A DNA stretch of 33,822 bases from Clostridia bacterium. GTDB lineage: Bacteria > Bacillota > Clostridia > Oscillospirales > CAG-272. Location: assembly GCA_017466685.1 (NCBI GenBank), contig JAFTTS010000048.1:1-33822 (forward strand). Reading direction: 5' to 3'. The first letter of the stretch is position 1; every line of letters begins with the position of its first letter. A model generated the notes under the pieces. That model did no database searches, had not been told where the DNA came from, and saw only the letters and a list, made by a program, of their open reading frames with translations. Both the position numbers and the translations under genes were made by a program. Shown here piece after piece: positions 2,534 through 30,979 of the stretch.

Positions 2534-2562
2534 ATTATACCACATTTTGCCGTCATTGTCAA
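2534..2562 (-). promoter_or_regulatory. Consensus sigma-A promoter of tetR-degV
   Basis: On the minus strand TTGACA (2562-2557), 17-bp spacer, TATAAT (2539-2534), preceded by TGG as in an extended -10. Both hexamers match consensus exactly. Confidence 0.88.
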
Positions 2563-2578: not shown

Positions 2579-2610
2579 TAAAAAACCACTTGCCGATTAT
2601 GACAAGTGGC
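2579..2610 (-). terminator. Terminator of the seven-gene transport operon
   Basis: On the minus strand GCCACTTG and CAAGTGG (2609-2603 with 2592-2586) form a 7-bp stem with a 10-nt loop, followed by TTTTTTATAT. It lies 15 bp after the stop codon of the last permease gene. Confidence 0.85.
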
Positions 2611-2623
2611 TTTATTTTTGAAA

Positions 2624-3652
2624 TTAACCAACGATACCGGAACGCTCGATACCACCGATCAAATATCTCTGCAGGAATACATACATAACAAGCAGAGGAG
2701 CAAGGATCAGCAGACCGCAAGTGTTCTTGATAGCAGATTCGTAAAGGTTACGTGCGGCATATTCCGTGTTGAGTGTCTTCGGAATCGCAACAACGTCGGG
2801 CATGAGAATGAATTTATCATTGTTGGGAATGAACAGCTCCGTATAGAAGTTGTCAGTCCACTGCCACGAGAAGGCGAAGAGGAAGATTGTGATCATCATC
2901 GGAACAGAAAGCGGCAGAATGATCTGAATAAAGGTTCTGAAAACGCCGCTGCCGTCGATGTACGCGGATTCTTCAAGCTCATCCGGTACGCCGTGGAAGA
3001 ACTGACGCATCATGAAGATATAAAGTCCGTTCTTAAAGGCAAGACCGCCGAATGAGAGAAGTGCCAGAGGCCAATAGGTGTTCATCAGGTTCAACGGGTT
3101 GCCCGTAATCAGCTTGAAGATACCGAAGATATCAAAGAATCTGAAGTTTACGAACATCGAAAGACGCAGGGTTCCGTGCGGGATAACCATCGTGAAGATA
3201 ACGAGCAGGAACACGAGCTTGTTGCCCTTGAACTTGAATTTAGCAAGACCGTAACCGATTACACAGCACATAAACGTCTGAATAAGTCCGCAGAGCACCG
3301 ACAAAATGAAGGTGTTAAAGAGGGCCTCGAAGTATTTATTGCTGCTGATGATCGCCTTATAGGTATCAAGAGTGGGATATTTCGGGATCAGCTTTACCGT
3401 TACATCAACGAAGTCGTCACGGCTCATGAACGAACCGGAGATCTTTGCGAAGAACGGGAAGAGGATGACGTACGAAATACCGATGAGAAGAACGTAAGTG
3501 AAAAGCTTGACAACTACGGTCTTAATAAAGTTACCGTTGAGGAACTTAGCTTTGAGACGGTCCTTCAGAGGGGTTCTTTCAAAATCAACTCTGATCTTGT
3601 TTTTACTCTCCTTCATAACGCGAGGAGTGCTTTGTGTTTGTTGAGAATTCAT
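2624..3652 (-). CDS. Carbohydrate ABC transporter permease, MalG/AraQ type (second pair)
   Basis: 342 aa. A hydrophilic N-terminal tail of about 45 residues precedes the first membrane helix (VVKLFTYVLLIGISYVILFP). The protein has six predicted membrane segments. The cytoplasmic EAA loop that docks on the ATPase is readable as ELEESAYIDGSGVFRTFIQI followed by ILPLSVP, with the conserved Gly. It is the last gene of the operon, 12 bp behind the MalF-like partner at 3665-4633, and the two should form a membrane heterodimer. The sequence does not tell the substrate. The tail is longer than in most MalG proteins. Confidence 0.9.
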   Translation of the reverse strand: MNSQQTQSTPRVMKESKNKIRVDFERTPLKDRLKAKFLNGNFIKTVVVKLFTYVLLIGISYVILFPFFAKISGSFMSRDDFVDVTVKLIPKYPTLDTYKAIISSNKYFEALFNTFILSVLCGLIQTFMCCVIGYGLAKFKFKGNKLVFLLVIFTMVIPHGTLRLSMFVNFRFFDIFGIFKLITGNPLNLMNTYWPLALLSFGGLAFKNGLYIFMMRQFFHGVPDELEESAYIDGSGVFRTFIQIILPLSVPMMITIFLFAFSWQWTDNFYTELFIPNNDKFILMPDVVAIPKTLNTEYAARNLYESAIKNTCGLLILAPLLVMYVFLQRYLIGGIERSGIVG

Positions 3653-3664
3653 TTGTATCCCTCC

Positions 3665-4633
3665 TTAATCGCGTTTCTGATAGAAGACGTATGTACTGAG
3701 AAGTGCCGCAACCACACCGATTATTACGAATACGATGAGGAAGTAGATCCAAGCCATTGCGGAGCTAAGTACCCAACCGCCTGTTGAATCGGTATAAACC
3801 TTTGTGATGTACGACATAACCACGTTCGACTGTGACGTAAACGAGTCGATGACCGTATAGATCGCGTTAACAAGGATCATCGGGCTGATCATCGGGAAGG
3901 TGATCTTCCAGAAGGTTTCCCAAGAGCTTGCGCCGTCTATCGAGCAGGACTCATAGATCGCAGGCGAGATGGACTGAAGACCGGCAAGGAATATAAGCAT
4001 CTGTACACCGGAGCGGTTGATGATATTGTAAATGTTATTAACAAGCGTTACAACATATTCAACAAGCTCAGTACCGACCTTCATGTTTTCGAAAAGCTTT
4101 TCGATATCAACAATCGAAAGAATATCGCCGGTGGTGTTCTGTCCTGAACCGTCATTGATGCCCGACTCGGTGGTGTTCATGTAATCGAGCATAGTGTTTG
4201 ACTGGTCGATCTGATCGATAAGACCTGTCGCAATGATAACGGGGATGAAGAAGATTGCACGGAACGCTGCACGTCCAACCATCTTCTGATTGAGAAGAAC
4301 CGCCATAAAGAGCGAGAAGATAACGATTGCGGGGATATCGAAGATGAGCTGCTGGATACCGGAGGTAAGAGTTTTAACGAACTCGGTATCAACAAACAGA
4401 GCATCCGAATAGTTTTTGAATCCGACAAAATCAAGTGTATAGCTTCCGCTAAGGAACGTGATCTTACTGAAGCTGAAGGTTACGGAGTTGATGATTATCG
4501 GAAGATAGATGAGCGCGAAGCAAAGCACAAACGGGAGAACGAACACCCATCCCGCACGTGCCTTACGTGCATCCAGAGAGGCAATACGCTTGCGTTTTGT
4601 GGAAACGGCAGGCTGTGCTATATTGTTATTCAT
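3665..4633 (-). CDS. Sugar ABC transporter permease, MalF type (second pair)
   Basis: 322 aa. Starts MNNNIAQPAVSTKRKRIASL, then a first helix GWVFVLPFVLCFALIYLPII typical of MalF-like permeases. The EAA loop reads YESCSIDGASSWETFWKITF followed by PMISP. Between two middle helices is a soluble insert of roughly 60 residues (DQSNTMLDYMNTTESGINDG and on), rich in Asn, Thr and Gly, which the other MalF-like protein of this operon does not show. Such a loop could face outside and contact a binding protein. It lies 19 bp after the DUF5696-type gene. Together with 2624-3652 it makes the second permease pair of the operon. Confidence 0.9.
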   Translation of the reverse strand: MNNNIAQPAVSTKRKRIASLDARKARAGWVFVLPFVLCFALIYLPIIINSVTFSFSKITFLSGSYTLDFVGFKNYSDALFVDTEFVKTLTSGIQQLIFDIPAIVIFSLFMAVLLNQKMVGRAAFRAIFFIPVIIATGLIDQIDQSNTMLDYMNTTESGINDGSGQNTTGDILSIVDIEKLFENMKVGTELVEYVVTLVNNIYNIINRSGVQMLIFLAGLQSISPAIYESCSIDGASSWETFWKITFPMISPMILVNAIYTVIDSFTSQSNVVMSYITKVYTDSTGGWVLSSAMAWIYFLIVFVIIGVVAALLSTYVFYQKRD

Positions 4634-4652
4634 TTAATATACCTCTCCTTTC

Positions 4653-7600
4653 TCAGTTAACCTTAACAAATCCGAGAGCTTCAACGGTGTAAGTTTCCTC
4701 ACCGTCGACAACGGTAATCGCAAAGTTATTGTAATTAAGAATGAATGCTGTACCACCCTCGTAAGTAACCTTGACGATCTTACCGTCATCAGAGGTATAC
4801 TTAGTGTAATGGTAGGTTTCAATGACCTCTTCTTCATCGGTGCCAAGGTCAACACCGCCGGAAAGATCGCCCTCATCAATGGTTTCCTTTCCTGCGAGAG
4901 CTGCGAGACGTTCAGCGAGAAGCTTTGCTTTTTCATTCTTTTCAGCAATGAGCTTCGCCTCTTCCTCAGCGAGCTTTGCCTCTTCCTCGGCTGCAATTCT
5001 GTCTGCCTCAGCCTCTTCTGCGGTGGGAATACGCTCACCGAGAATGAATTCGTGACCGATGATCTGCTTATCCTGGAGATCTGCGAGCTCTGCATTAAGT
5101 GTGGTGTAAAGCTCGAGAACGTCCTCATGCCAGATATCAAATCCAACGGAATAATACTTGTTGAATTCCTCATCCTCTTTCAGGAGTTGAGTGTTCTGCA
5201 TGGAGAGAGTGAAGTAAAGCGACGAGCCGTTTTCGATAGCCTTAAGCAGCTCATACTTGGTGTCACCTGCCATGTTGATCGCAGTACCGGTGAAGTTCAC
5301 GCAGCCGTGGAGAACCATACCCATAAACGGAATGGATTCGCTTGCACGAGAGAAACGGCTGGAATCGAGCGGAACATTAAGGATGTGATCCGCATAAGAA
5401 AGCACATATGCGTTACCGCCCTCAGTCATAACGTTGGTGTAAGCTTCCTCGAGATTCGAGAGCATATCAACGGTGAACTCTCTGGAATCCTCGCGGTTGT
5501 ACGGATCTTTCTTATCGAAGTCGGAGTTAAGATCGGTACCGAGAGTGGAAACCGAAACGCCGTTCGGAGAAAGCTTGCTGTATTCTTCGCTGAAGTTATC
5601 GAAGAAATAATCGTAAACCGAAGGAGAAATTACGAGCGCCATACCCTTTTCGAAGGACTGAAGCGTCGAATCGTAGAAACGCTTGGAGATATAACGGTTA
5701 TCCATTGTTTTAACAAGATGCTTCTTATTGGAAACGCCGTCAAACCATCCCTTGGAGGTTACATATGCAAAGTCAAACTCGGGATATACACCGATTCCGT
5801 TCTCATTTGCATATTCAACGAACTCTGTAAATCCATCATTACCGCCGACAACCTTTTCAAATTCAACATGATAAGGATAAGCGGTGTTCATGCCGCCGTT
5901 TGCGTAACCGGTCAGCTTGAAGTTAATGTTTGTGATTCCCTCGTCTGAGAGCTTTTCATACATAGTTCTGAGATCATCGAAGGTTGTAAGAGGCTTCATA
6001 ACGTCGATCGGAATCGAGAGGAACTTCTCAATTGTATCGATCGCACCGAAGGATTCGATGTAAAGCGGAATATTCTCCTCTACATCGGTAAGCTCGGTGA
6101 GAGTGCCCTTTTCGATAAGATAATCTCTGTAAGCCTTTGCCATACCGACGTAGCTGTCTTCATAGAAGTCCTCGATGCCTGCAGCCTCAGCAGCCGCTTC
6201 ATCGGTGAGCATGATATACTTGATACGGTAGCTTCCGGTGTACTTACGCTCGGAAACAACAGTATATGTTGCAGCAGCGCCGCCGGTCATTGCGGTATCA
6301 AGCTCATATGTATCGGTAGGTCTCGGATAGAAGGTCGGATATACGGTGTTATACTTGTGTGTTGTTCCGCCGTGATCGGTACTGAGCTCAGCAAGTGAGT
6401 CGCCCTCCTCGATGATCGCAAAGAAACCGTTAGGCTGCTTATACGGAGGAATGTACGGCTTCATACCCGTTGCAAGCTCTTCTTCTGTGAGCTCCTCGGG
6501 AATGAACACATCAGATTCAAGTACGCCGTAAACCGGCATTCTCATAACTTCCTTGTTTTCGCCGGCGATCTTCTGATATGCATAGTCCTGACCGTAAACC
6601 TTACCTGTGATGGTAAGCGGCTTTGTACCAACATCCTCGAAGCGGACAAGCGCACCCGAACCGTCGGGAATGAAGGTGTAACCCTCATATTCGCTTGAAC
6701 CTGCGCCAAACCAGGGAAGCAGCTGGATATAGTTGAGCTGATATGTGGTCTCGTCGAAACGGATACCGTTTGCAGGGAGACGAACATCAAGGTTACCGTG
6801 CTCATCAAGAGTGTACTCAAGAGAGAGTCTGAAGAGTGCGGGAGCCTTGCTCTGTCCCTTATACTGAGTCATGTTGTGATCCTCTTCGAGAGTTTCGAAG
6901 GTGTACTCGGGGCAGTAGGTCTTGATAAGATCCTCAATAATAGTCTGCTCACGGTTCGGAGCTTCAGAGTCGAAGGTGTAAATTTCCATCTCAGCACAAA
7001 CCGGGAAGTTAGCGATCATGGAGTTGATCAGAGCCTCGGACTTATTGGGATTGAGAGAGTCCTGAAGCACGTAATAGGTCTTGAACTTAGCGAGTGCATT
7101 CTTTCCGTCAGACGCCTTAGCATCCTCGGGAATATTTGCGAGAATGAGCTCTTCAAAACGCGAACGCTCCATATACATCGGAAGCAGCTTACGTGTTTCG
7201 GTACGTCCCATCGCATATTCAACGCGAACACCGTTCTTGATCTTCTTAACGGTGATCTGACCGCGCAGACAAGCTTCAACGTAGCTGTTCATGGTGTTAA
7301 CTTTACCGTTATCGGTATAGTTGATCATGATCTGCGAGAGAAGCTTTTGTTTTGTGTCATTGGTTGACGTTGTGGACGCAACATCAAAGGGGTTTGAGAA
7401 AAGGATCTGACCGGTCTTGTTGTTTACGTAAGCAATTTCACCGGAAACAGGCTCAACATAGAGTGACATATCCTCTTTTTCGAGGTATTTGGTCATGGTT
7501 GCGAGCTTATCCTCGGGAGATGCGAAGACCTGCTTTACGTAATCAATAGTGGGCTTTCCCTCTTCTTCATCAAATCCGGGAACAAGCGGTTCAGCCGCAA

Positions 7601-7667
7601 GCACCGGGAGCATTCCAAGAACCATAACAACAGCCAGGAACGCCGATAATAATTTAATTTTCTTCAT
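4653..7667 (-). CDS. Large secreted DUF5696-type protein, probable polysaccharide-acting
   Basis: 1004 aa with a Sec signal peptide (MKKIKLLSAFLAVVMVLGML, then PVLAAE) and no lipobox or sortase motif. Around residue 330 is the block YEGYTFIPDGSGALVRF, which I associate with DUF5696 proteins of Paenibacillus and Clostridia. Residues about 535-790 alternate beta-strand and helix like a TIM barrel. Acidic positions at strand ends (GVYPEFDFAY, GTDLNSDFD) could be catalytic by analogy with glycoside hydrolases, but this is not proven. A charged Ala/Glu/Lys coiled coil lies at about 882-922, and a small beta-rich domain closes the protein (TYEGGTAFILNYNNFAITV). It sits between the two permease pairs, 21 bp behind the NHL-Yip1 gene and 19 bp before the second MalF-like gene. 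It ends in TGA, which shows that TGA is a normal stop here. The specific reaction is unknown. Confidence 0.75.
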   Translation of the reverse strand: MKKIKLLSAFLAVVMVLGMLPVLAAEPLVPGFDEEEGKPTIDYVKQVFASPEDKLATMTKYLEKEDMSLYVEPVSGEIAYVNNKTGQILFSNPFDVASTTSTNDTKQKLLSQIMINYTDNGKVNTMNSYVEACLRGQITVKKIKNGVRVEYAMGRTETRKLLPMYMERSRFEELILANIPEDAKASDGKNALAKFKTYYVLQDSLNPNKSEALINSMIANFPVCAEMEIYTFDSEAPNREQTIIEDLIKTYCPEYTFETLEEDHNMTQYKGQSKAPALFRLSLEYTLDEHGNLDVRLPANGIRFDETTYQLNYIQLLPWFGAGSSEYEGYTFIPDGSGALVRFEDVGTKPLTITGKVYGQDYAYQKIAGENKEVMRMPVYGVLESDVFIPEELTEEELATGMKPYIPPYKQPNGFFAIIEEGDSLAELSTDHGGTTHKYNTVYPTFYPRPTDTYELDTAMTGGAAATYTVVSERKYTGSYRIKYIMLTDEAAAEAAGIEDFYEDSYVGMAKAYRDYLIEKGTLTELTDVEENIPLYIESFGAIDTIEKFLSIPIDVMKPLTTFDDLRTMYEKLSDEGITNINFKLTGYANGGMNTAYPYHVEFEKVVGGNDGFTEFVEYANENGIGVYPEFDFAYVTSKGWFDGVSNKKHLVKTMDNRYISKRFYDSTLQSFEKGMALVISPSVYDYFFDNFSEEYSKLSPNGVSVSTLGTDLNSDFDKKDPYNREDSREFTVDMLSNLEEAYTNVMTEGGNAYVLSYADHILNVPLDSSRFSRASESIPFMGMVLHGCVNFTGTAINMAGDTKYELLKAIENGSSLYFTLSMQNTQLLKEDEEFNKYYSVGFDIWHEDVLELYTTLNAELADLQDKQIIGHEFILGERIPTAEEAEADRIAAEEEAKLAEEEAKLIAEKNEKAKLLAERLAALAGKETIDEGDLSGGVDLGTDEEEVIETYHYTKYTSDDGKIVKVTYEGGTAFILNYNNFAITVVDGEETYTVEALGFVKVN

Positions 7668-7688
7668 TACTATACTCCTATCCTGTTA

Positions 7689-9815
7689 TTACATACGGAA
7701 TGAAACTTCTGTAACGATGCTGGAAATGAAGCTTACGATCTTAGCAAGAAGCGCGGAGAAGAGAACACCGATAAACATGATGATCGCCATACCGAGGATC
7801 GTACCGAGACAGGTAAGAACATTCTTTCCGAACGTATAATCGTGTGTAACCATCATACCAAAGAAGATGAGCAGACCTGCCCAGACAAAGGCGAAGGTTA
7901 CGAGAAGATTGATGATGGTGGATTCGCCTGCAAGTGCCACATTGGAATAGAGGACCGAGGGAATAATAAGGATCGGGATCGGAACGAGCGCATAGCAGGT
8001 TGCGACGAAGATATCCTTAAGACTTCCTTCACCGTCAAACAGAGTTGTGAGACACCAGTTTGCAACGGTCCAGAGAATAACGGGAACTGCAACTGCAGCA
8101 ACCTGAACAAGGATCGTTGAGGATTCCTGACGGGGATCGAAAATGTAACCGGTTCCGACATCCTGATAGAAGAAGGTCAGAATCGCAACAACAAGCCAAA
8201 CAAGAGCTGCTCTGACAGAACCGCGCTGTTCATGCTTCAGATCCCAGAAGCCGTCAAACGGATGGAGAATAAGGTGACAAGCGTAAAGGAGCTCTTCCTT
8301 GAAGGTCTTGCGTCCTTTCTTGAGCTGAGTTTTCTTGTTGATCTTAGCCGCGTACTTATTAAAGATTACGAGGAGGGCAACAACAACGATTGCAATTACG
8401 GGGATCCAGAGAATATTCTTTGCAATCCAGTTCTTTCTTATTTCCTTGAATGCTTCGGAATAGTTTTCGGTGTCGTATGCCGACTTGTAGGATTCCATCG
8501 CTTCGGTATACTTTGCTTCTCTGTAGAGTGCTTTACCTATACCGATGTATGCAGAGTCGAAGTTATTGTTTCTCTGGCGTATCTCCAGCCAGTATTCCAT
8601 CGACTTGTCATAGTTACGTTCGTTAGTGTTTCTGACAGCCTCGATAAGCAGGTCGCCGTACTCGGTGCGTCTGAAAACAGTAATATTGTCGGCAGCCTTA
8701 TCGAGGATAAGAATATCACTGTCGAGATAAGCAATTGCCTCAATAGACTGAATGTTACCGAGCTGCTGACCGATATCACCGAAGACGAAGAGGAGATTAC
8801 CACCCTCATCATAGGTGAAGATCTTGGAACGCTTTTCGTCGATGATCGACCAGGTTTCCTCAGGACCGACAGCCGCGTCGATGATTACGGAAGCACCGGT
8901 GATCTCTGCGGTTGTAAGATTCGAAACCTTTACTTCACCGCCGGGACCGAAGAAGCCGTTACGCTTCATGATGTCCGCACCTGCAGTGTTGAGCTTCTTA
9001 ACGGGAGCATATGTGCTGTCCTTGCTGTCAATAGCTGCCTGCTGCGAGTCAGGATCGACCGACGAGGTGGTTACATAAATGAAGCCGTCCTTGTCGATGG
9101 TGATGTTGTTAAACTCAGTCGAAACGTACTGCTGCGAGAACTTTCTCTGCTCTGCGGTCTGGAAGTTTCTCCAGAGGATATCGAGAGCACTGATCGTAAC
9201 CTTCTGCGCACCGATGAAGCCCTGGAATTCGCCATCTTCATTGATCGCGATAACGCCCATGTATGTGGAGGAGGATACGACATAGATACGGCCGTATTCG
9301 TCAACCGCGATTGCAACCGGCTTATAAACCGAGCCTGCGGGGAAAACGTCTGCATCGGGTTCTTCGATGGTCTTATAGTAAGTACCGTCGATCTCGAACA
9401 TTACGATACGGTTGTTGTCTGTATCGGCAACGTAGATCTTGTCATTCTGAACGAAAACGCCCGAAGGACTTGAAAGCGAGTCCGGAACGCCGTTCTGATT
9501 GACAAAGGAATCGATGTAGAATTTCAGCTTGTAATATCTGTCAAGAACGACGATACGGTTGTTAGCCGCGTCTGCGATGTAAACGTTTTTGTATTCGTCA
9601 ACAACGAGGTCACGGGGATCGTCGATTGCAGGCTCAACACCCATATATTCGGAATCGATCTGTCTGTCCGGAACATAAGCGTCGGGAGACTGAAGAGCGA
9701 AGCCGTCGATTGAATAGGTGTATGTTGAATACGGAGTGATAGCCGAGAGCGGCAGGCATCCGAAAGCAAGAATGAGACAAGCTGCGAGGGCAAGTAACTT
9801 TATTGATTTTTTCAT
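7689..9815 (-). CDS. Secreted NHL-propeller / TPR / Yip1-type membrane protein
   Basis: 708 aa with several parts. An N-terminal signal peptide (MKKSIKLLALAACLILAFGC...) is followed by NHL-type beta-propeller repeats: DPRDLVVDEYKNVYIADAAN at about 64, SPSGVFVQNDKIYVADTDNN at about 115, and weaker ones to about 350. Residues about 395-465 are TPR-like helices (YDKSMEYWLEIRQRN, YTEAMESYKSAYD). A membrane helix follows at about 470-490 (ILWIPVIAIVVVALLVIF). The C-terminal 200 residues are a Yip1-family multi-helix domain starting HPFDGFWDLKHEQRGS. The propeller and TPR should face outside. It lies 12 bp after the first MalG-like gene and 21 bp before the DUF5696 gene. I infer a membrane-anchored scaffold or sensor for the transporter; no enzymatic motif is seen. 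AFGC is a poor lipobox. Confidence 0.75.
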   Translation of the reverse strand: MKKSIKLLALAACLILAFGCLPLSAITPYSTYTYSIDGFALQSPDAYVPDRQIDSEYMGVEPAIDDPRDLVVDEYKNVYIADAANNRIVVLDRYYKLKFYIDSFVNQNGVPDSLSSPSGVFVQNDKIYVADTDNNRIVMFEIDGTYYKTIEEPDADVFPAGSVYKPVAIAVDEYGRIYVVSSSTYMGVIAINEDGEFQGFIGAQKVTISALDILWRNFQTAEQRKFSQQYVSTEFNNITIDKDGFIYVTTSSVDPDSQQAAIDSKDSTYAPVKKLNTAGADIMKRNGFFGPGGEVKVSNLTTAEITGASVIIDAAVGPEETWSIIDEKRSKIFTYDEGGNLLFVFGDIGQQLGNIQSIEAIAYLDSDILILDKAADNITVFRRTEYGDLLIEAVRNTNERNYDKSMEYWLEIRQRNNNFDSAYIGIGKALYREAKYTEAMESYKSAYDTENYSEAFKEIRKNWIAKNILWIPVIAIVVVALLVIFNKYAAKINKKTQLKKGRKTFKEELLYACHLILHPFDGFWDLKHEQRGSVRAALVWLVVAILTFFYQDVGTGYIFDPRQESSTILVQVAAVAVPVILWTVANWCLTTLFDGEGSLKDIFVATCYALVPIPILIIPSVLYSNVALAGESTIINLLVTFAFVWAGLLIFFGMMVTHDYTFGKNVLTCLGTILGMAIIMFIGVLFSALLAKIVSFISSIVTEVSFRM

Positions 9816-9827
9816 AATTACCCTCCT

Positions 9828-10700
9828 TTAGTCCTTCATACCCGATGAACCCATCGTTTCGATGATGTTACTCTGAGTGATAATAAATACGCTGATCGGA
9901 ACCGCCATCATGATAACCTGAGAAGCCGCAGCAGCACCTGCACGGGCAATACCGCCGGCAACGATCTGGTTGATAGCGTAGTTGAAGGTCTTTAACTGTT
10001 CGGAATAGATGTAGATCGAGTTACCCGCGTTCCAAAGGCCCTGGAAGGAGTAAATGATAAGTGTAAGCCAAGCGGGCTTAACCATCGGCATCGCGATCTT
10101 GATGAATGTATAGAACTCGGAAGCACCGTCAAGTCGTGCAGATTCGAGAACCGCATCGGAAACCGAGGATTCCATGAACTGCTTCATGAGGTAAAGACCA
10201 AGGGAGGTACACCAAGCGGGAACGATGATCGCGAGGTAAGTATCAACCCAGTGGAGAGTACTCATGGTAAGGAAGTTTGCAATAGCGGTGACGGTGGAGT
10301 TAAACATAAGGGAGAGGACGATGACCTGGAAGATCCAGCCGCGTCCGGGGAACTTGATCTTAGCCAGAGCGTAAGCCGCCATGGAGGAGAAGATCAGGTT
10401 ACCGACAGTACCCGAAACCGAAATAAATACGGTGTTGAATATGTATCTTGAGAAAGGAACCCAAGATGTGCTCATGAGCTTAAAGAGGTCGGAGAAGTTC
10501 TTGAGAGTCGGGCTTACAACATAGAAGCGCGGAGGATACATCCAAAGCTCATCAAGAGGCTTCAGCGACTGCATGATAACGTAAAGCATCGGCAGGAACA
10601 TGAAAGCGCCGAGGATAATAAGCATTACGTTAATGCCGAGGTCGCCGCCAACCGAACGGTTGAGGACAACTTTATGTTTTCTGGTTCTTAACTTTGCCAT
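9828..10700 (-). CDS. Carbohydrate ABC transporter permease, MalG type (first pair)
   Basis: 290 aa, the typical length. A short basic tail (MAKLRTRKHKVVLNRS) precedes the first helix (VMLIILGAFMFLPMLYVIMQ). The ATPase-docking loop reads AVLESARLDGASEFYTFIKI followed by AMPMVKP, with the family's conserved Ala and Gly. Its start lies one base after the stop of the MalF-like gene, so the two are translationally coupled and should form one heterodimeric pore. Confidence 0.92.
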   Translation of the reverse strand: MAKLRTRKHKVVLNRSVGGDLGINVMLIILGAFMFLPMLYVIMQSLKPLDELWMYPPRFYVVSPTLKNFSDLFKLMSTSWVPFSRYIFNTVFISVSGTVGNLIFSSMAAYALAKIKFPGRGWIFQVIVLSLMFNSTVTAIANFLTMSTLHWVDTYLAIIVPAWCTSLGLYLMKQFMESSVSDAVLESARLDGASEFYTFIKIAMPMVKPAWLTLIIYSFQGLWNAGNSIYIYSEQLKTFNYAINQIVAGGIARAGAAAASQVIMMAVPISVFIITQSNIIETMGSSGMKD

Positions 10701-10701
10701 A

Positions 10702-11658
10702 TTATTGTCCCACCTTCGAAAGTAATTTCTTGATCACGAGGTTACAGCCCACCATGACGATGAACAGTATAACCGCGATTGTTGAGGAGTAACCGACTTC
10801 GAAACGCTGTCCGCCGTAGTCCTCGAGGTGATGCATGATGGTATGAGCCGCATAGTCAACAGACGGCATACCTGCGAGTGCAGTAACGACCGCACCGAAA
10901 CCGAACGACTGGGTTATAGCCATAACCGCACCGAACATAAGCTGCGGCTTCATCGTCGGCAGAGTGATATACCAGAGCTCCTGCCATCTGTTCTTAACGC
11001 CGTCAACCGCACCTGCCTCATAAAGCGACTTATCGATAGTCTGAAGACCTGCGATAAACGAGAGGAAGGAAGTACCGAGCGAAGTCCAGAGCGCAACAAC
11101 GATACACAGAGGCATAACGTAATTTGCGTCCTTAAAGAACAGAATAGGCTCGGTTATAAATCCGAACTCAAGCAGCCAAGCATTAACATAGCCGTATGAG
11201 TCACTTGAGAAGATTACCTGCCAAATGAGGTAAACGGAACCCGCGATGGACGGCGCATAGAAGATAAGAGTAACTATCGCACGGATCTTGGGAGTAAGCT
11301 CGTTAATGAACCAAGCAACGAGCAGGGATATAAAGTATGATACGGGACCTGTGATCGACGCGAATACGAGGGTATTCTGAGCGGCGGTCAGGAAGATATC
11401 ATCATCGAGGAAGAGTCTGATATAGTTGTCCGCGAAGATGAATCTGGGAAATTCGAGCAGGTTAAACTCGGTGAAGCTCAAAATGATAGACAAAGCAACC
11501 GGGAATACAGTGAAGATGGTAAAGAGGATAATAAACGGCGCGATCATGATGTACGCAGTTTTATTACGAGCTATCTCTTTAAGAGTCCACTGAAACTTGG
11601 TCATTTCTTTACGAGAAGTCGGCTTCGGCGATTTTTTTGCCGTTGCGTTCTGTGGCAT
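10702..11658 (-). CDS. Sugar ABC transporter permease, MalF type (first pair)
   Basis: 318 aa. A Lys-rich N-terminus (MPQNATAKKSPKPTSRKEMT) leads to the first helix (YIMIAPFIILFTIFTVFPVA), followed by the usual MalF-type helices. The EAA loop is SLYEAGAVDGVKNRWQELWY, then ITLPTMKP. It follows the binding-protein gene after an 84-bp gap that holds a strong hairpin, and is coupled to the MalG-like gene downstream. It lacks the extracellular insert seen in the second MalF-like protein at 3665-4633. Confidence 0.92.
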   Translation of the reverse strand: MPQNATAKKSPKPTSRKEMTKFQWTLKEIARNKTAYIMIAPFIILFTIFTVFPVALSIILSFTEFNLLEFPRFIFADNYIRLFLDDDIFLTAAQNTLVFASITGPVSYFISLLVAWFINELTPKIRAIVTLIFYAPSIAGSVYLIWQVIFSSDSYGYVNAWLLEFGFITEPILFFKDANYVMPLCIVVALWTSLGTSFLSFIAGLQTIDKSLYEAGAVDGVKNRWQELWYITLPTMKPQLMFGAVMAITQSFGFGAVVTALAGMPSVDYAAHTIMHHLEDYGGQRFEVGYSSTIAVILFIVMVGCNLVIKKLLSKVGQ

Positions 11659-11693
11659 CTGTATTCTCTCCTTTACAGAAATTTATGATACCG

Positions 11694-11724
11694 TCTCCGC
11701 CCGCCCGTTCCCGGAGGACGGAGA
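11694..11724 (-). other. Intercistronic hairpin between binding-protein and permease genes
   Basis: On the minus strand TCTCCGTCC (11724-11716) pairs with GGGCGGAGA (11702-11694) with one G.T pair, extended by CC/GG inside. No T-run follows (next bases CGGTATCATAAA), so it is not a full terminator. Stem-loops in this position downstream of binding-protein genes are known to protect the upstream mRNA, giving more binding protein than permease. Confidence 0.6.
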
Positions 11725-11742
11725 ATCGGAATAATTAGTCGT

Positions 11743-14700
11743 TTATTCGGTTTCCTGTTCCTGCTGTTCCTTCTGCTTTGCTTCTCTGTCAGCAAGTGTT
11801 TCACCAAGCTCAAGCGTGTCAAGATCAAATTCCTGACGCTTTCTGGTGATTTCCTTATTGATATCGTCAACATAGCCGAGGAGTGCTTCAACAGGATCCG
11901 CGTTGTTATTGAGCGCATCAAGGAACGCGAACTCAACATAACGGGTTATAATGTAACCGCCGGGCATTTCTTCGATAGTAGCAAGGTTATTGTACTGAGC
12001 GAAGATATTTTCGATGTCTGTTGACGTCCAAGGCAGGGACTTGATTGCTTCCTTATTAGCAGTTGCAAACATTGAACCCATACCAACTATAGCAACCTTT
12101 TCGTTTGCGTAGTCGGACTGTGTTTCCTTGGTCGTGTACCAATCCATGAATTTCCAAGCGCTTTCCTGCTTATCACAGCCGTTCATCATGATGATGGAGG
12201 TTACAGTGGAGATCGCAACATTATTGATTGTGCCATCCTCCTGTTCCATACCGATTATCGGTACGAACTCCCAAAGGTCACGAATTTCGGTTGCGAAGAC
12301 GGAGAGCTGATTATACATCGTGATGTAGTCAGCGAAGATAATCGGCATTTCACCCGTTCTGAAACGGTTCGCCGCATCGTACTGATACGGGAACGAATAC
12401 TGAGTAAAGTAAGAACACATGGTGTCGAATGCTTCAAGTGCAACATTGGAGTCGAGGTTGATTCTCATACCGTCATCGGCATAGAGCTCGCCGCCCATCT
12501 GATAGAGGAAGAGCTGGAGACCTGCCATACTGTTCGGTATACCGACTTCCATATTATTATATTGAAGAACAGGAACCATAGCCATAAGGTCGTCCCATGT
12601 TCTCGGGATATCAAGACCAAGCTCTGCGAGGACGTCCTTACGATAGAACATCATCGAGAATGTCTGAGTTTCGGGCAGACCGTACGTTACGCCGTAAAGC
12701 GACATCGGAACGGTTGCGGACTCGGAGAATCTCGAAGCAACCTCATCGAAGTTTGAGAAGACCTGTCTCATCTCTGCCTTGTAAGCCTTGGTTTCCTCAT
12801 CGTCGCCTTCTTCATCTGCATATCCCTCAGGGTTAAGCGGAAGAACTGCACTTCTGATCGCATACTGAACCGGGATGGTCTGAGCGTTTTCAAGTGCAAC
12901 GTCAGGACCTGTTCCCGAAAGTGTCGCCGGGAGAAGTGTACCTGCCGCAACGAGTCGGAGGTTAACGCCGATTCCCTGCTCACCAACGAAGTAGTTATCG
13001 CAGAGTGTACGGATAACCTGTGCGGAGTCACGGTCGCTCTGTGCCCAAACGTCGATAATTTCATTCTGATCGAGCTCTTTGGTTGCACCCATGTTCGAAT
13101 AGTCTGTGAAGAACGACATAACGAACGACTTGACCTCAAAGCCGACTGAATCGAAGAATCCCGCCTCAGCCTTGGGAAGCTTTGTTCCTGCGGGCTGGAT
13201 CGAAATATAGTCGAGAAGCAGCGGCTGGCTTCTTACGCTGTTAAGCCATGTACCGAGCGTACCGATGTTACTCTTAAGAGTTGAAAGGTTCTTAGCAACC
13301 TCGTCCTCATCGGTCGCCATCTTTTCAAGAACACGCGCGATGTTGTCAAGAGTTGCCGTGTTGCTTCCCTTGGAGCCGTTGATCTCGGTTATGAGCTTGG
13401 AAACGGCATCGATCTCGCGGTACTGCTTGTAAAGGTCCTTGATGGTGTCCGGAATAAGTCCTCTGAAGTTATAGTCACGATACTGGTCGGGATCGGCACC
13501 TGTAATCTGAAGGATCTTCAGGTAGTCGTTGTTGATCGAGGTGAGAGCATTCTGAATACGTCCGATGATCTCACTCATTTCGCCGAGAACAACTTCAAAT
13601 CTTATTGTATATTCTTTGCCCGCTTCAAAGTAGAACTGGAACGAGGTCTCGCCGTTGTTGAGTGCCTTTACATTCCAGGATTCAGAGAAATTGAACTGGA
13701 GGTAATTTGCTTCCTCGAAAGGGATCTCACCGTTTATGTAAATACGGCGGGATGTATACATACCGTTAAGGTCAGCCTGCTTGAAGCGCGGAACGATCTC
13801 ATAAAGACCGCTTGCTTCGGGCGTGAATGTATACTCGATCCACTGACCGACACCCTGCCATTTTGTTCCGCCGATCGCATTGAGCTTGGACTGCGACGAG
13901 CTCTGAGGAGAGGTTATCGCGGAAGTTCTGTCATTCTGCGGATAAATGGTCTGGTCTGAGGTTGCGCCGGTGAACTCAGCCTCAATGATAATGGGCTCAA
14001 CACCGGTTGCCGGCTTGTAACCGTTTTTCTCATATTCTGCTTCAACATCGCTGTATGACGGAAGCTCCTCATAGGGAAAAAGCGTTATGCTCTTGATGAT
14101 AAGAGTTTCACGTGTGCCCTCAAAGGAGATGGTGTGAGTACCTTCGGTGAATACGATTTCAAAAGGATTGATGTCGTATCCTGTCGAGTCGGACATAACA
14201 TAAGTACACCATTCGGGAACGACGTTCTTCTCCGGTCTGATCTCATTTTTATTGAGGTCGAGAACGAAGCCGCGTCCGCCATCATCGTAATTGTCCACAA
14301 GACTGTCATGCCACACTTTGGAAAGCGAAAGGTATCTCGCTCCCTTGAAGGGATACTCCCCATCAATACGCAGTCTGCGCTCGATAGCAGTAGCCTTGGC
14401 TTCCTCGTCGTTGAACGATTCACCGGATGCCAAGAAGCTGTATTCGATCTCAACTGCATATTTAGCCGTTTCGGGAACATAGGCATCCCATGTTACAGTA
14501 CCCGAGCTGGGAGTATAAAGCACACCATCGCGCACTTCCACCGCAGCGTCTGTCAGTTCCTTGTTGTAATCGACGGCGTTTATAACGATTGATGATTCTG
14601 CGCGCTTAACATCGGCATTTCTCACCGCATAATCCGCGTAGGTTTCGGCGTTTAACAGAGCCTGAACGTCAGCTATATCGTAGCCGACCATGGAGCTGTC

Positions 14701-14814
14701 ATTTTCCGTTTCGGCGGTTTCAGTCTGCGCAGCCGTAGCAACGCCGAGACCTGAACCGAGCATCATCAATGATAAAAAACCGGCAATTAAACGTGTTAAT
14801 CTCGTTTTTTTCAT
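11743..14814 (-). CDS. Very large extracellular solute-binding protein with two N-terminal beta modules
   Basis: 1023 aa, more than twice the usual binding-protein length. The Sec signal peptide (MKKTRLTRLIAGFLSLMMLG, then SGLGVATAAQ) has no lipobox Cys. Two beta-rich modules follow, at about 55-250 and 270-410. They look like tandem duplicates: RRLRIDGEYPF.GARYLSLSKVW near residue 146 matches RRIYINGEIPF.EANYLQFNFSESW near 360. The second contains IIIEAEF...WIEYTF.PEASGLYEI, as in CBM6/CBM35-like carbohydrate modules. Helices at about 410-575 link to a MalE-type binding domain (575-1000: TLLPATLSGTGPDVAL, VLAELGLDIPRTWDDLMAMV, AWKFMDWYTTKE). It is first in the operon, so it should be made in excess. 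A complex glycan or oligosaccharide ligand is an inference. Confidence 0.88.
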   Translation of the reverse strand: MKKTRLTRLIAGFLSLMMLGSGLGVATAAQTETAETENDSSMVGYDIADVQALLNAETYADYAVRNADVKRAESSIVINAVDYNKELTDAAVEVRDGVLYTPSSGTVTWDAYVPETAKYAVEIEYSFLASGESFNDEEAKATAIERRLRIDGEYPFKGARYLSLSKVWHDSLVDNYDDGGRGFVLDLNKNEIRPEKNVVPEWCTYVMSDSTGYDINPFEIVFTEGTHTISFEGTRETLIIKSITLFPYEELPSYSDVEAEYEKNGYKPATGVEPIIIEAEFTGATSDQTIYPQNDRTSAITSPQSSSQSKLNAIGGTKWQGVGQWIEYTFTPEASGLYEIVPRFKQADLNGMYTSRRIYINGEIPFEEANYLQFNFSESWNVKALNNGETSFQFYFEAGKEYTIRFEVVLGEMSEIIGRIQNALTSINNDYLKILQITGADPDQYRDYNFRGLIPDTIKDLYKQYREIDAVSKLITEINGSKGSNTATLDNIARVLEKMATDEDEVAKNLSTLKSNIGTLGTWLNSVRSQPLLLDYISIQPAGTKLPKAEAGFFDSVGFEVKSFVMSFFTDYSNMGATKELDQNEIIDVWAQSDRDSAQVIRTLCDNYFVGEQGIGVNLRLVAAGTLLPATLSGTGPDVALENAQTIPVQYAIRSAVLPLNPEGYADEEGDDEETKAYKAEMRQVFSNFDEVASRFSESATVPMSLYGVTYGLPETQTFSMMFYRKDVLAELGLDIPRTWDDLMAMVPVLQYNNMEVGIPNSMAGLQLFLYQMGGELYADDGMRINLDSNVALEAFDTMCSYFTQYSFPYQYDAANRFRTGEMPIIFADYITMYNQLSVFATEIRDLWEFVPIIGMEQEDGTINNVAISTVTSIIMMNGCDKQESAWKFMDWYTTKETQSDYANEKVAIVGMGSMFATANKEAIKSLPWTSTDIENIFAQYNNLATIEEMPGGYIITRYVEFAFLDALNNNADPVEALLGYVDDINKEITRKRQEFDLDTLELGETLADREAKQKEQQEQETE

Positions 14815-14975: not shown

Positions 14976-15017
14976 AATCGGCGGTTCCCATCATCATATC
15001 GGGACAGTCCGCCGATT
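14976..15017 (-). other. Hairpin at the 5' end of the transport-operon leader
   Basis: AATCGGCGG (14976-14984) pairs with CCGCCGATT (15009-15017), with an inner TCCC/GGGA stem. In the operon mRNA it begins within about ten bases of the predicted start, a typical position for a 5' stabilising stem. Read on the plus strand it is followed by six T residues and would act as a terminator, but no plus-strand gene precedes it. Confidence 0.6.
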
Positions 15018-15030
15018 TTTTCATACAAAT

Positions 15031-15059
15031 ATAATAGCATAACACCGCAAAAAAGTCAA
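15031..15059 (-). promoter_or_regulatory. Promoter of the seven-gene transport operon
   Basis: On the minus strand TTGACT (15059-15054), 17-bp spacer, TATTAT (15036-15031). Each hexamer differs from consensus at one base. It gives an untranslated leader of about 210 nt before the ATG at 14814, which has GGAGGAAC upstream. Confidence 0.72.
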
Positions 15060-23748: not shown

Positions 23749-24129
23749 ATGGGAATAATCACCGTTGACACCCGTGATCGCAAGCCGATCTGGGAACAGC
23801 TTACCGACAATATAAAATTACTCATTCTTCGCGGTATATTGGGGCCCGACGAACAGCTTCCGGGAGTCCGCACCCTCGCAGGAGAGCTCGCCATAAACCC
23901 GAACACCATTGCCAAGGCGTACGCCGAGCTTGAACGTCAGGGAATCATATATTCGATTCAAGGCCGCGGCAGCTTCGTTTGCGATAACGTCGAGGGACTT
24001 CGCGGCACGCAGAGAAACGAAGCGGCGGAGGAACTCAGGGAAGCACTGAAAAAAGCGTTTGACGCCGGTGTTTCGAGGGAAGATATCATCAAAATGACAG
24101 AGGAGATTTGGAGGGATAAAAATGATTGA
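23749..24129 (+). CDS. GntR-family regulator, YtrA subfamily
   Basis: 126 aa from the ATG at 23749, which has AAGGAGGG nine bases upstream; the longer frame to 23641 crosses the promoter and is not used. Residues 14-76 form the GntR winged helix (PIWEQLTDNIKLLILRGIL, LPGVRTLAGELAINPNTIAK, AYAELERQGIIYSIQGRGSF). Only a short helical tail follows, the mark of the YtrA subfamily, whose members usually repress a neighbouring ABC exporter operon and respond to cell-envelope stress. That arrangement is seen here: its stop overlaps the ATPase start by 8 bp. Confidence 0.93.
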   Translation: MGIITVDTRDRKPIWEQLTDNIKLLILRGILGPDEQLPGVRTLAGELAINPNTIAKAYAELERQGIIYSIQGRGSFVCDNVEGLRGTQRNEAAEELREALKKAFDAGVSREDIIKMTEEIWRDKND

Positions 24130-25021
24130 ACTCAAAGGCGTCAGCATGAGCTATGGAAAGATCCGTTCGCTTGAAAACGTAAACGCGACAGTCAGGGACG
24201 GCTCAATATTCGGACTTATCGGCTCAAACGGCTCGGGAAAATCCACGATGCTGCGTATACTCTGCGGCGTTATAAAGCCCGACGAGGGAGAGGTTACATA
24301 CGACAGCCTGCCCGTTTGGGAAAATGACCTCGTAAAGCAGGATATCGTCTATCTTTCGGATGAACAGTATTTCATTCCGCATTGCACGATAAACGATATG
24401 CGAAAGCTCTATAAAACCGTTTACACAAACTTCTCGGACGAAACCTTCAAGCGTCTGCAAAGCATATTCACGCTCGACTGTGACCGTAAGATCAACACCT
24501 TTTCGAAGGGTATGAAAAAGCAGGCATCGGTCATGCTCGGAATCTCGGCACGTCCGAAATATCTGCTCTGTGACGAGACATTCGACGGACTCGATCCCGT
24601 TGTTCGTCAGCTTGTAAAGCGTATTTTAGCGGAAGAATCGGCAGACGGCGGCATGACCACCATTATCGCGTCACACAACCTTCGCGAAATGGAGGATATC
24701 TGCGACACGGTGGGACTCTTACACAAGGGTGACCTGCTGTTTGTCCGTGAGCTTGACGACATGAAATCGGAATTTCATAAGGTTCAGGCGATCTTCGAGG
24801 GCGAATTTGACGCATCAAAGCTCGTCCCCATGAAAATACTCGCATACTCAAAGCGCGGCAGTCTCGTTTCATTCATCGCACGCGGCACCATCGACGAAAT
24901 AAACCGTCAGATGATCGAAAAGAACCCTACATTCTACGAAACCGTACCGCTCACCCTTGAGGAAATATTCATAAGCGAAATGGAGGAAAAAGGTTATGAC
25001 TTCTCAAAGCTCGACTACTGA
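24122..25021 (+). CDS. ABC transporter ATPase (YtrB-like)
   Basis: 299 aa. Walker A is GLIGSNGSGKSTMLRILCGV (about 34-41), Walker B LLCDETFDGLDP (about 150), and the switch histidine is in IIASHNLREMED. The signature motif is the variant FSKGMKKQ rather than LSGGQ, common in small export-type ATPases paired with YtrA regulators. A C-terminal extension of about 80 residues follows the ATPase core. GGAGG lies just before the ATG. It overlaps both neighbours (8 bp with gntR, 26 bp with the permease), so the three are translationally coupled. Confidence 0.92.
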   Translation: MIELKGVSMSYGKIRSLENVNATVRDGSIFGLIGSNGSGKSTMLRILCGVIKPDEGEVTYDSLPVWENDLVKQDIVYLSDEQYFIPHCTINDMRKLYKTVYTNFSDETFKRLQSIFTLDCDRKINTFSKGMKKQASVMLGISARPKYLLCDETFDGLDPVVRQLVKRILAEESADGGMTTIIASHNLREMEDICDTVGLLHKGDLLFVRELDDMKSEFHKVQAIFEGEFDASKLVPMKILAYSKRGSLVSFIARGTIDEINRQMIEKNPTFYETVPLTLEEIFISEMEEKGYDFSKLDY

Positions 25022-29644: not shown

Positions 29645-30760
29645 TTAGTGAACGATGCACTTTTCGGTATCCTTATCGAAGATATGGAGTCTCGAAATTT
29701 CGAGAGCAACCTGAATGGTGTCACCCTGCTTTGCATTGGAGCGAGAGGATACACGTGCGGTGAGGGACTGTTCCTCATCAGCAGCGAGGTAAAGGAAGAT
29801 TTCGTTACCCATAAGCTCTGTAACGTCAACATTACAGGTGATAACGCTGTCTGCCATATTGGAGAGGTACATAGGCTCGTCGTGGATACACTCGGGACGA
29901 AGACCTGCGATAACCTCCTTGCCGATGTAATCCTTGAGAACATCATCCTTGTTCTTTTCAGCGGGAAGCTTGAGGGAGTTGCCTGCAAACTCGATGTAGA
30001 TGTCGCCATCCTTCTTAACGAGCTTTGCATCGATGAAGTTCATCTGAGGAGTTCCGATAAAGCCGGCAACGAAGATGTTGCAAGGAGAATCGTAAAGGTT
30101 CTGAGGTGTGTCAACCTGCTGAATGAGACCGTCCTTCATAACAACGATACGGCTCGCCATGGTCATAGCCTCGACCTGGTCGTGAGTAACGTAAATAAAG
30201 GTGGTACCGAGCTTCTTGTGGAGCTTGGTAAGCTCAGTTCTCATCGCTGCACGGAGCTTAGCGTCGAGGTTTGAGAGCGGCTCGTCGAGAAGGAATACCT
30301 TAGGATCACGGACGATCGCACGACCGAGCGCAACACGCTGCTTCTGACCACCGGAGAGTGCCTTCGGCTTTCTGTCGAGAAGGTGAGTGATGTCGAGGAT
30401 ACGAGCAGCCTCCTCAACCTTTCTCTTGATTTCTTCCTTGGGAACCTTGCGAAGCTTAAGACCGAATGCCATGTTATCGAACACGGACATATGAGGATAA
30501 AGAGCATAGTTCTGGAAAACCATCGCGATATCTCTGTCCTTCGGAGCAACGTCGTTAACGAGTCTGTCGCCGATGAAGAGCTCACCCTCGGTGATTTCCT
30601 CAAGACCTGAGATCATACGCAGAGTTGTGGACTTACCGCAACCGGAAGGTCCGACGAAAATGATGAACTCCTTGTCCTTGATGTCAAGGCAGAAGTCGGA
30701 AACGGCAGTAACGCCGCCCGGATACTTTTTGTAAATGTGTTTTAAAGATAAGCTTGCCAT
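29645..30760 (-). CDS. ugpC: Sugar ABC transporter ATPase, MsmX/UgpC/MalK family
   Basis: 371 aa from the ATG at 30760, which has AGGAGGAGA just upstream; the longer frame to 30844 has no such site. Motifs: Walker A GPSGCGKSTTLR, Q-loop VFQNYALYP, signature LSGGQKQRVALGRAIVRDP, Walker B VFLLDEPLSNLD, switch VTHDQVEAMTMA. The C-terminal third is the MalK-type OB-fold regulatory domain (GLRPECIHDEP). A lone gene with its own promoter and terminator, as is usual for multitask ATPases (MsmX, MsiK) that energise several sugar importers. The seven-gene operon in this window has two permease pairs and no ATPase, so this is its most likely motor. The symbol follows common annotation; substrate specificity is not implied. 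Confidence 0.93.
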   Translation of the reverse strand: MASLSLKHIYKKYPGGVTAVSDFCLDIKDKEFIIFVGPSGCGKSTTLRMISGLEEITEGELFIGDRLVNDVAPKDRDIAMVFQNYALYPHMSVFDNMAFGLKLRKVPKEEIKRKVEEAARILDITHLLDRKPKALSGGQKQRVALGRAIVRDPKVFLLDEPLSNLDAKLRAAMRTELTKLHKKLGTTFIYVTHDQVEAMTMASRIVVMKDGLIQQVDTPQNLYDSPCNIFVAGFIGTPQMNFIDAKLVKKDGDIYIEFAGNSLKLPAEKNKDDVLKDYIGKEVIAGLRPECIHDEPMYLSNMADSVITCNVDVTELMGNEIFLYLAADEEQSLTARVSSRSNAKQGDTIQVALEISRLHIFDKDTEKCIVH

Positions 30761-30834
30761 AATAATCTCCTCCTGTATATTTTGAAAACGGCACTTAAGT
30801 GTCGATATCAAAGCAGTCTTTTTCAACGTATAAT

Positions 30835-30843
30835 ATTGTACCA
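30835..30843 (-). promoter_or_regulatory. Extended -10 promoter of the sugar ABC ATPase gene
   Basis: On the minus strand TGGTACAAT (TACAAT at 30840-30835) with no good -35 hexamer. A leader of about 70 nt follows. Confidence 0.45.
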
Positions 30844-30979
30844 AATTCCCCCCAAAAATGGAAGAGTGGTTTTCCCCAAATTTTCATACGATTATTTGTA
30901 AGAGATGCACAAGTGATTGCCGTTGTTTTTTAATTTTTAATTTTCAGAATTAATTTATTTTTTAATTTATTAAAAGTTT

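Follow-up and report, generated by a model that had tools for sequence, protein, structure and literature searches.

What does a predicted sugar-import operon gain from an NHL-TPR-Yip1 protein and a DUF5696 protein placed between its two permease pairs? The question is raised by seven genes on a stretch of 33,822 nucleotides from a Clostridia bacterium of the order Oscillospirales (assembly GCA_017466685.1, contig JAFTTS010000048.1, positions 1 to 33,822), which we refer to in full as the window. One fixed gene order recurs across Bacillota, yet for neither the NHL-TPR-Yip1 nor the DUF5696 protein did we locate any tested role, and a text search of the literature returned no paper naming DUF5696. 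The cluster is nevertheless partly known already, under another name: the window operon is probably an Oscillospirales-type version of the transporter block in the xylan degradation locus of Caldicellulosiruptor bescii, without AxoE and without linked glycosidases. New here are the link to that locus, the breadth and fixed order of the cluster, the lack of a second binding protein in the clade of the window, the likely loss of the GH129 catalytic aspartate, and the absence of lipid anchors. The elements of the operon are as follows:

15031..15059, minus strand: predicted promoter, TTGACT-17-TATTAT with extended TG (consensus match; kept in 4 congeneric genomes)
11743..14814, minus strand: giant solute-binding protein, 1023 aa, XloE-like (Pfam, profile search, AlphaFold model, Foldseek)
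10702..11658, minus strand: permease F1, XloF-like (BPD_transp_1; EAA loop YEAGAVDG)
9828..10700, minus strand: permease G1, XloG-like (BPD_transp_1; EAA loop LESARLDG)
7689..9815, minus strand: NHL propeller-TPR-transmembrane-Yip1 membrane protein, equivalent to "X" in C. bescii (Pfam, PDB matches, hydropathy)
4653..7667, minus strand: DUF5696 protein with a GH129-like fold, putative pseudo-enzyme (Pfam, model, Foldseek, profile search, residue columns)
3665..4633, minus strand: permease F2, AxoF-like (BPD_transp_1; EAA-like loop YESCSIDGASSWETFWKITFP, read directly)
2624..3652, minus strand: permease G2, AxoG-like (BPD_transp_1; EAA loop EESAYIDG)
2582..2613, minus strand: intrinsic terminator (13-bp stem and T tail; strongest in the terminator scan)

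In the published notation, the C. bescii locus reads xloEFG-X-GH129-axoFGE, with xylanase genes after it, and holds two ATP-binding cassette (ABC) transporters of the CUT1 type; on xylan, its proximal genes are among those with an induction of approximately 10- to 100-fold, and a deletion of msmK, the gene of the shared ATPase, impairs growth on this polymer (PMC8579813). Seven of these eight genes are present in the window in the published order, with only the last (AxoE) absent. A 44-nt XynR operator probe of Athe_0174 has also been published (PMC12285236), and it matches with zero mismatches upstream of the giant binding protein gene in two of the loci surveyed here, L098 and L099. Because the Athe_0174 operator is located in these loci and the gene order is the same, we equate the giant binding protein with XloE, the NHL-TPR-Yip1 protein with "X" and the DUF5696 protein with "GH129". 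Both blocks contain the same seven families in the same order, start with the giant binding protein and lack an ATPase gene. The first-pass annotation, made from the sequence alone, knew of no described function for such clusters; this no longer holds, since the C. bescii ortholog is published, is induced by xylan and has its DUF5696 protein already named GH129. The link to a thermophile with published knock-outs makes the roles of "X" and DUF5696 directly testable.

Collinearity with a xylan degradation locus invites the reading that the module takes up oligosaccharides from xylan, the prediction made for C. bescii, but the window itself makes this improbable. Three features of the C. bescii locus (Athe_0174 onward) are missing from the window: AxoE, adjacent xylanases and the XynR operator, for which the best site upstream of the operon has 8 mismatches, which is chance level. 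The window genome (89% complete) contains neither GH10 nor GH43; it has a single weak match to GH26, several GH3 genes and a few GH13 genes. Because the operon has no linked glycosidase, nor its genome a GH10 or GH43, the xylan assignment is not simply transferable, and the substrate of the window operon is probably not xylan. In other lineages, the genes adjoining the module encode GH26 most often, followed by GH10, GH30, GH5, GH113, GH43 and GH38 (mannan-/xylan-type), and the linkage of mannan-type and pectin-type enzymes there also argues against the xylan reading. Since the linked enzymes vary across lineages and the window has no GH10, GH43 or XynR site, the module seems to be a chassis that has been adapted to various glycans of the hemicellulose type. 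Import of a complex glycan, as originally suggested for the operon, is supported by the linked GH26, GH10, GH30, GH5, GH113 and GH43 enzymes together with the C. bescii xylan regulon. As a separate observation, locus L094 (genome G209), which shares its genus with the C. bescii-type loci, has a CBM27-GH26 mannanase after the module in place of xylan enzymes.

How fixed the arrangement is was determined from 20-kb stretches around strong DUF5696 genes, comprising an order-level set of 41 loci (window included) and a phylum-level set of 39. At the order level, the sequence binding protein-F1-G1-NHL-Yip1-DUF5696-F2-G2 is identical in 39 of 41 loci, the other 2 being cut by contig ends; NHL-Yip1 adjoins DUF5696 throughout, except in L059, where a contig end blocks the check. 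At the phylum level, the full order is found in 23/39 loci and the order of the blocks is swapped in five. The NHL-Yip1 and DUF5696 genes do not usually lie apart from such transporters: in the phylum-level set NHL-Yip1 adjoins every strong DUF5696 gene (39/39), and F2-G2 comes after DUF5696 wherever there is enough contig (37/37). This supports the proposal that the two proteins are dedicated partners of the importer. A second survey started from the giant binding protein alone, instead of DUF5696, and the rest of the cluster is present in about 70 of the 80 named loci that it retrieved. These are mostly from Paenibacillus, with others from Cohnella, Lederbergia, Halothermothrix, Thermoanaerobacterium, Treponema and further genera; the first-pass annotation had mentioned similar gene sets in Paenibacillus and other Firmicutes and considered that the cluster may be widespread. 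In Paenibacillus and many others, NHL-TPR and Yip1 are encoded by two genes, which are fused into one in the window. Outside the main Bacillota distribution, the full cluster also occurs in Treponema and Acholeplasma metagenome genomes (L111, L186 and L190), for which transfer or a binning error are candidate causes.

A second, normal-sized binding protein follows G2 in 20/37 phylum-level loci versus 1/38 order-level loci; the AxoE position is empty in the window and in 36 of the 37 further order-level loci where the contig leaves space for this gene. The clade of the window has therefore lost this protein or never had it. Two permease pairs for one binding protein, a large membrane protein with repeat domains and the lack of linked catabolic enzymes would also suit a device for glycan sensing or surface assembly. 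Only one of the permease pairs would then transport, with the NHL-TPR-Yip1 protein as a relay or organiser. We regard such a device as quite improbable. EAA loops for docking of an ATPase are recognisable in all four permeases (three by pattern, the fourth, F2, by reading), pair 2 has its own binding protein in the 20 phylum-level loci just mentioned, and Pfam reports no sensor kinase or signalling domain among the operon genes.

Transport would require an energising subunit, and Pfam finds no ATPase encoded among the operon genes. The window contains one elsewhere:

29645..30844, minus strand: UgpC/MsmK-type ATPase, likely the energising subunit in trans (NCBIfam PRK11650, 483 bits, cut-off 432)

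The two next-best ATPase matches in the genome sit on contigs of other binding proteins, and the gene at 29645-30844 is the best candidate for energising the importers of the operon. The MsmK/MsmX shared-ATPase systems are arranged likewise, with a UgpC-type ATPase encoded away from a sugar importer that has none of its own, although for the window we infer the pairing. A cluster-1 binding protein, BPD_transp_1 permease pairs, EAA loops and a PRK11650-type ATPase in the window are together the features of a CUT1 (MalEFG-type) carbohydrate ABC importer.

To which family the DUF5696 protein belongs is suggested by its structure model (pLDDT 87, pTM 0.83). Foldseek places the GH129 enzymes ZgGH129 and NagBb first (ranks 1-11, E-values to 5e-29, TM-score 0.69-0.73 on target length), followed by GH101, GH31 and GH36, and GH129 chains are also best in a profile search (E 5e-9 to 6e-7). 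Of the sequence searches of the PDB, the one with a single sequence gave no match and only the profile led to GH129; the protein does not match Pfam PF11308 (GH129) at E 0.01; a PF11308 scan of Bacillota genomes returned zero matches and is uninformative because the control was silent too. With the GH129 enzymes (NagBb, 5WZN; ZgGH129/DagB, 5OPQ and 8RZG), the DUF5696 protein shares a beta-sandwich, a TIM barrel and a C-terminal beta domain, whereas identity is only ~10-12%, the apparent equivalent of the catalytic Asp is Thr, and the second acid is not conserved.

The catalytic Asp is Asp-435 in NagBb and Asp-486 in ZgGH129 (PMC5698469). Since the HMMER alignment to the GH129 chains ends before the active site, we assigned the corresponding column by strand position and spacing in the model rather than by superposition; it should fall at the end of strand beta-4, at residue 707-708, and the spacing from the aligned beta-3 region agrees with column 708 to within 9-14 residues. 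This putative catalytic column holds Thr in the window and also in L098, which is of the C. bescii type; among the order-level rows (window included), 23/27 have Thr or Ser there. The end of beta-5 has no conserved acid in any clade and is followed by a nearly invariant Asn-752. Given the Thr at column 708 in the window and the lack of a conserved second acid, a carbohydrate-binding role is likelier than hydrolysis, and a carbohydrate-binding pseudo-enzyme is the likelier description of the modelled protein, ahead of a hydrolase. An active extracellular glycosidase, which would belong to a new family related to GH129 and use other acids to trim the glycan between capture and import, is on these grounds rather unlikely; it would draw on the GH129-like fold, on D335, D361, D716 and E812, which are nearly invariant in the DUF5696 alignment, on the Asp at the presumed nucleophile column in 11/22 rows from other lineages, and on the precedent of ZgGH129, which is active although it retains just one of the two catalytic residues of NagBb (PMC5698469). 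The outer-face processing complex of the first-pass annotation consequently stays conjectural in its processing part. DUF5696 proteins are enlarged to 1600-2061 aa in three loci (L057, L069 and L070). Shorter DUF5696-like proteins (~570-700 aa), with partial and weaker matches, occur outside the operon in genomes G001, G002, G003, G005 and G023, and are possibly a separate enzyme family.

The giant binding protein (1023 aa; AlphaFold model with pLDDT 88) consists of a signal peptide, two beta-sandwich domains (residues 70-410), a helical stalk (413-528) and a cluster-1 binding protein. The second beta domain has a profile match to a region of 5x7g, a cycloisomaltooligosaccharide glucanotransferase, which we take to be its CBM35. 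By profile search and Foldseek, the C-terminal half is nearest to binders of beta-1,2-glucan, cycloisomaltooligosaccharide and cycloalternan; Lin1841, which binds beta-1,2-glucooligosaccharides, and the cyclo-glucan binders (5YSB, 9XF5, 5F7V) have the same fold as this half but lack the ~570-residue N-terminal part with its CBM-like and helical regions. A pattern-based search finds no lipobox Cys in the giant protein of the window or in 134 of 139 homologues, and none in any of the three secreted proteins of the operon. The other three binding proteins of the window genome do show a lipobox-type Cys (in L197 it is visible by eye and was missed by the pattern). Neither the missing lipoboxes nor the lack of an operon ATPase and the ATPase gene at 29645-30844 had been mentioned in the first-pass annotation. 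The giant protein would most obviously be kept at the surface either by an uncleaved signal anchor or by the NHL-TPR-Yip1 protein.

For the NHL-TPR-Yip1 protein, the NHL and Yip1 folds named at the outset are supported by Pfam, NHL also by a PDB match at residues 64-237, and the TPR fold by weak PDB matches only (399-455). Hydropathy predicts a signal-peptide segment, then a long soluble part and one transmembrane segment (462-493), with more membrane segments in the Yip1 part. Because the soluble propeller/TPR part comes after the signal peptide, it should face outward. From this topology and the fixed position between the transporter halves, we infer that the protein is a scaffold tethering the giant binding protein.

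These elements can be combined into a cell-surface module for glycan capture and import, an explanation that we consider fairly likely as a whole. In it, the two CUT1-type ABC importers (F1-G1 and F2-G2) would be served by a non-lipidated binding protein whose CBM-like domains capture large or branched oligosaccharides; the GH129-like DUF5696 protein would bind the glycan or, less likely, trim it; the NHL-TPR-Yip1 protein, with propeller and TPR outward and Yip1 in the membrane, would tether both near the permeases; and the shared UgpC/MsmK-like ATPase (29645-30844) would supply ATP hydrolysis. The substrate would be a hemicellulose-type or other glycan. Gene content and order, conservation, folds and the collinearity with the C. 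bescii locus are established, while the joint complex, the tethering, the binding role of DUF5696, the ATPase pairing and the substrate class are predicted. Several points weigh against this explanation. The Xlo and Axo substrates in the published C. bescii locus are predictions themselves (PMC8579813), and the window operon has no linked glycosidase in a genome without GH10 or GH43. N-D-F2-G2 blocks without a cis E-F1-G1 half exist in 7/39 phylum-level loci, some near contig ends, so that the two halves are separable, and contact of the NHL-TPR-Yip1 protein with other operon proteins is conjectural. A bolder version, which we put forward tentatively and with the balance somewhat against it, is that NHL-TPR-Yip1 represents a new accessory scaffold of ABC importers, on which CBM-bearing binding proteins lacking a lipid anchor and a catalytically dead relative of GH129 are docked to two importers, as a monoderm analogue of the Bacteroidetes Sus complex present across Bacillota. 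If true, this would be a Gram-positive surface glycan-capture complex independent of lipoproteins.

That the seven genes form one predicted operon is well supported. All seven minus-strand open reading frames (ORFs) are found within 2624-14814, with intergenic gaps of 12, 19, 21, 12, 1 and 84 bp as the earlier range of 1-84 bp implied, and Pfam assigns them to SBP_bac_8/SBP_bac_1, two BPD_transp_1 pairs, NHL plus Yip1, and DUF5696 (510 bits). As a consensus match alone, the promoter proposed at 15031-15059 does not exceed chance (18 sites in the scan versus 18.8 expected), yet when upstream regions are aligned, TTGACT-17-TATTAT and the extended TG prove to be kept in the window and in its congeners L036, L054 and L056. 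The single terminator, first placed at 2579-2610, is recovered at 2582-2613. Between promoter and first gene lies a leader hairpin, AATCGGCGG...CCGCCGATT (14976-15017, minus strand), with a similar one in L036 and none in L054; an Rfam search of the leader gave no match. Just past the operon terminator, a perfect sigma-70 promoter (12/12, extended TG; 2534-2562, minus strand) precedes a TetR-like gene at 1914-2516. The operon flanks contain no gene family conserved across the order, the recurring families being overlapping antisense ORFs or general ABC ATPases. Further along the window, a 704-aa protein without a Pfam match (24996-27110, plus strand) directly follows an ABC ATPase gene (24122-25021) and is probably an exporter permease.

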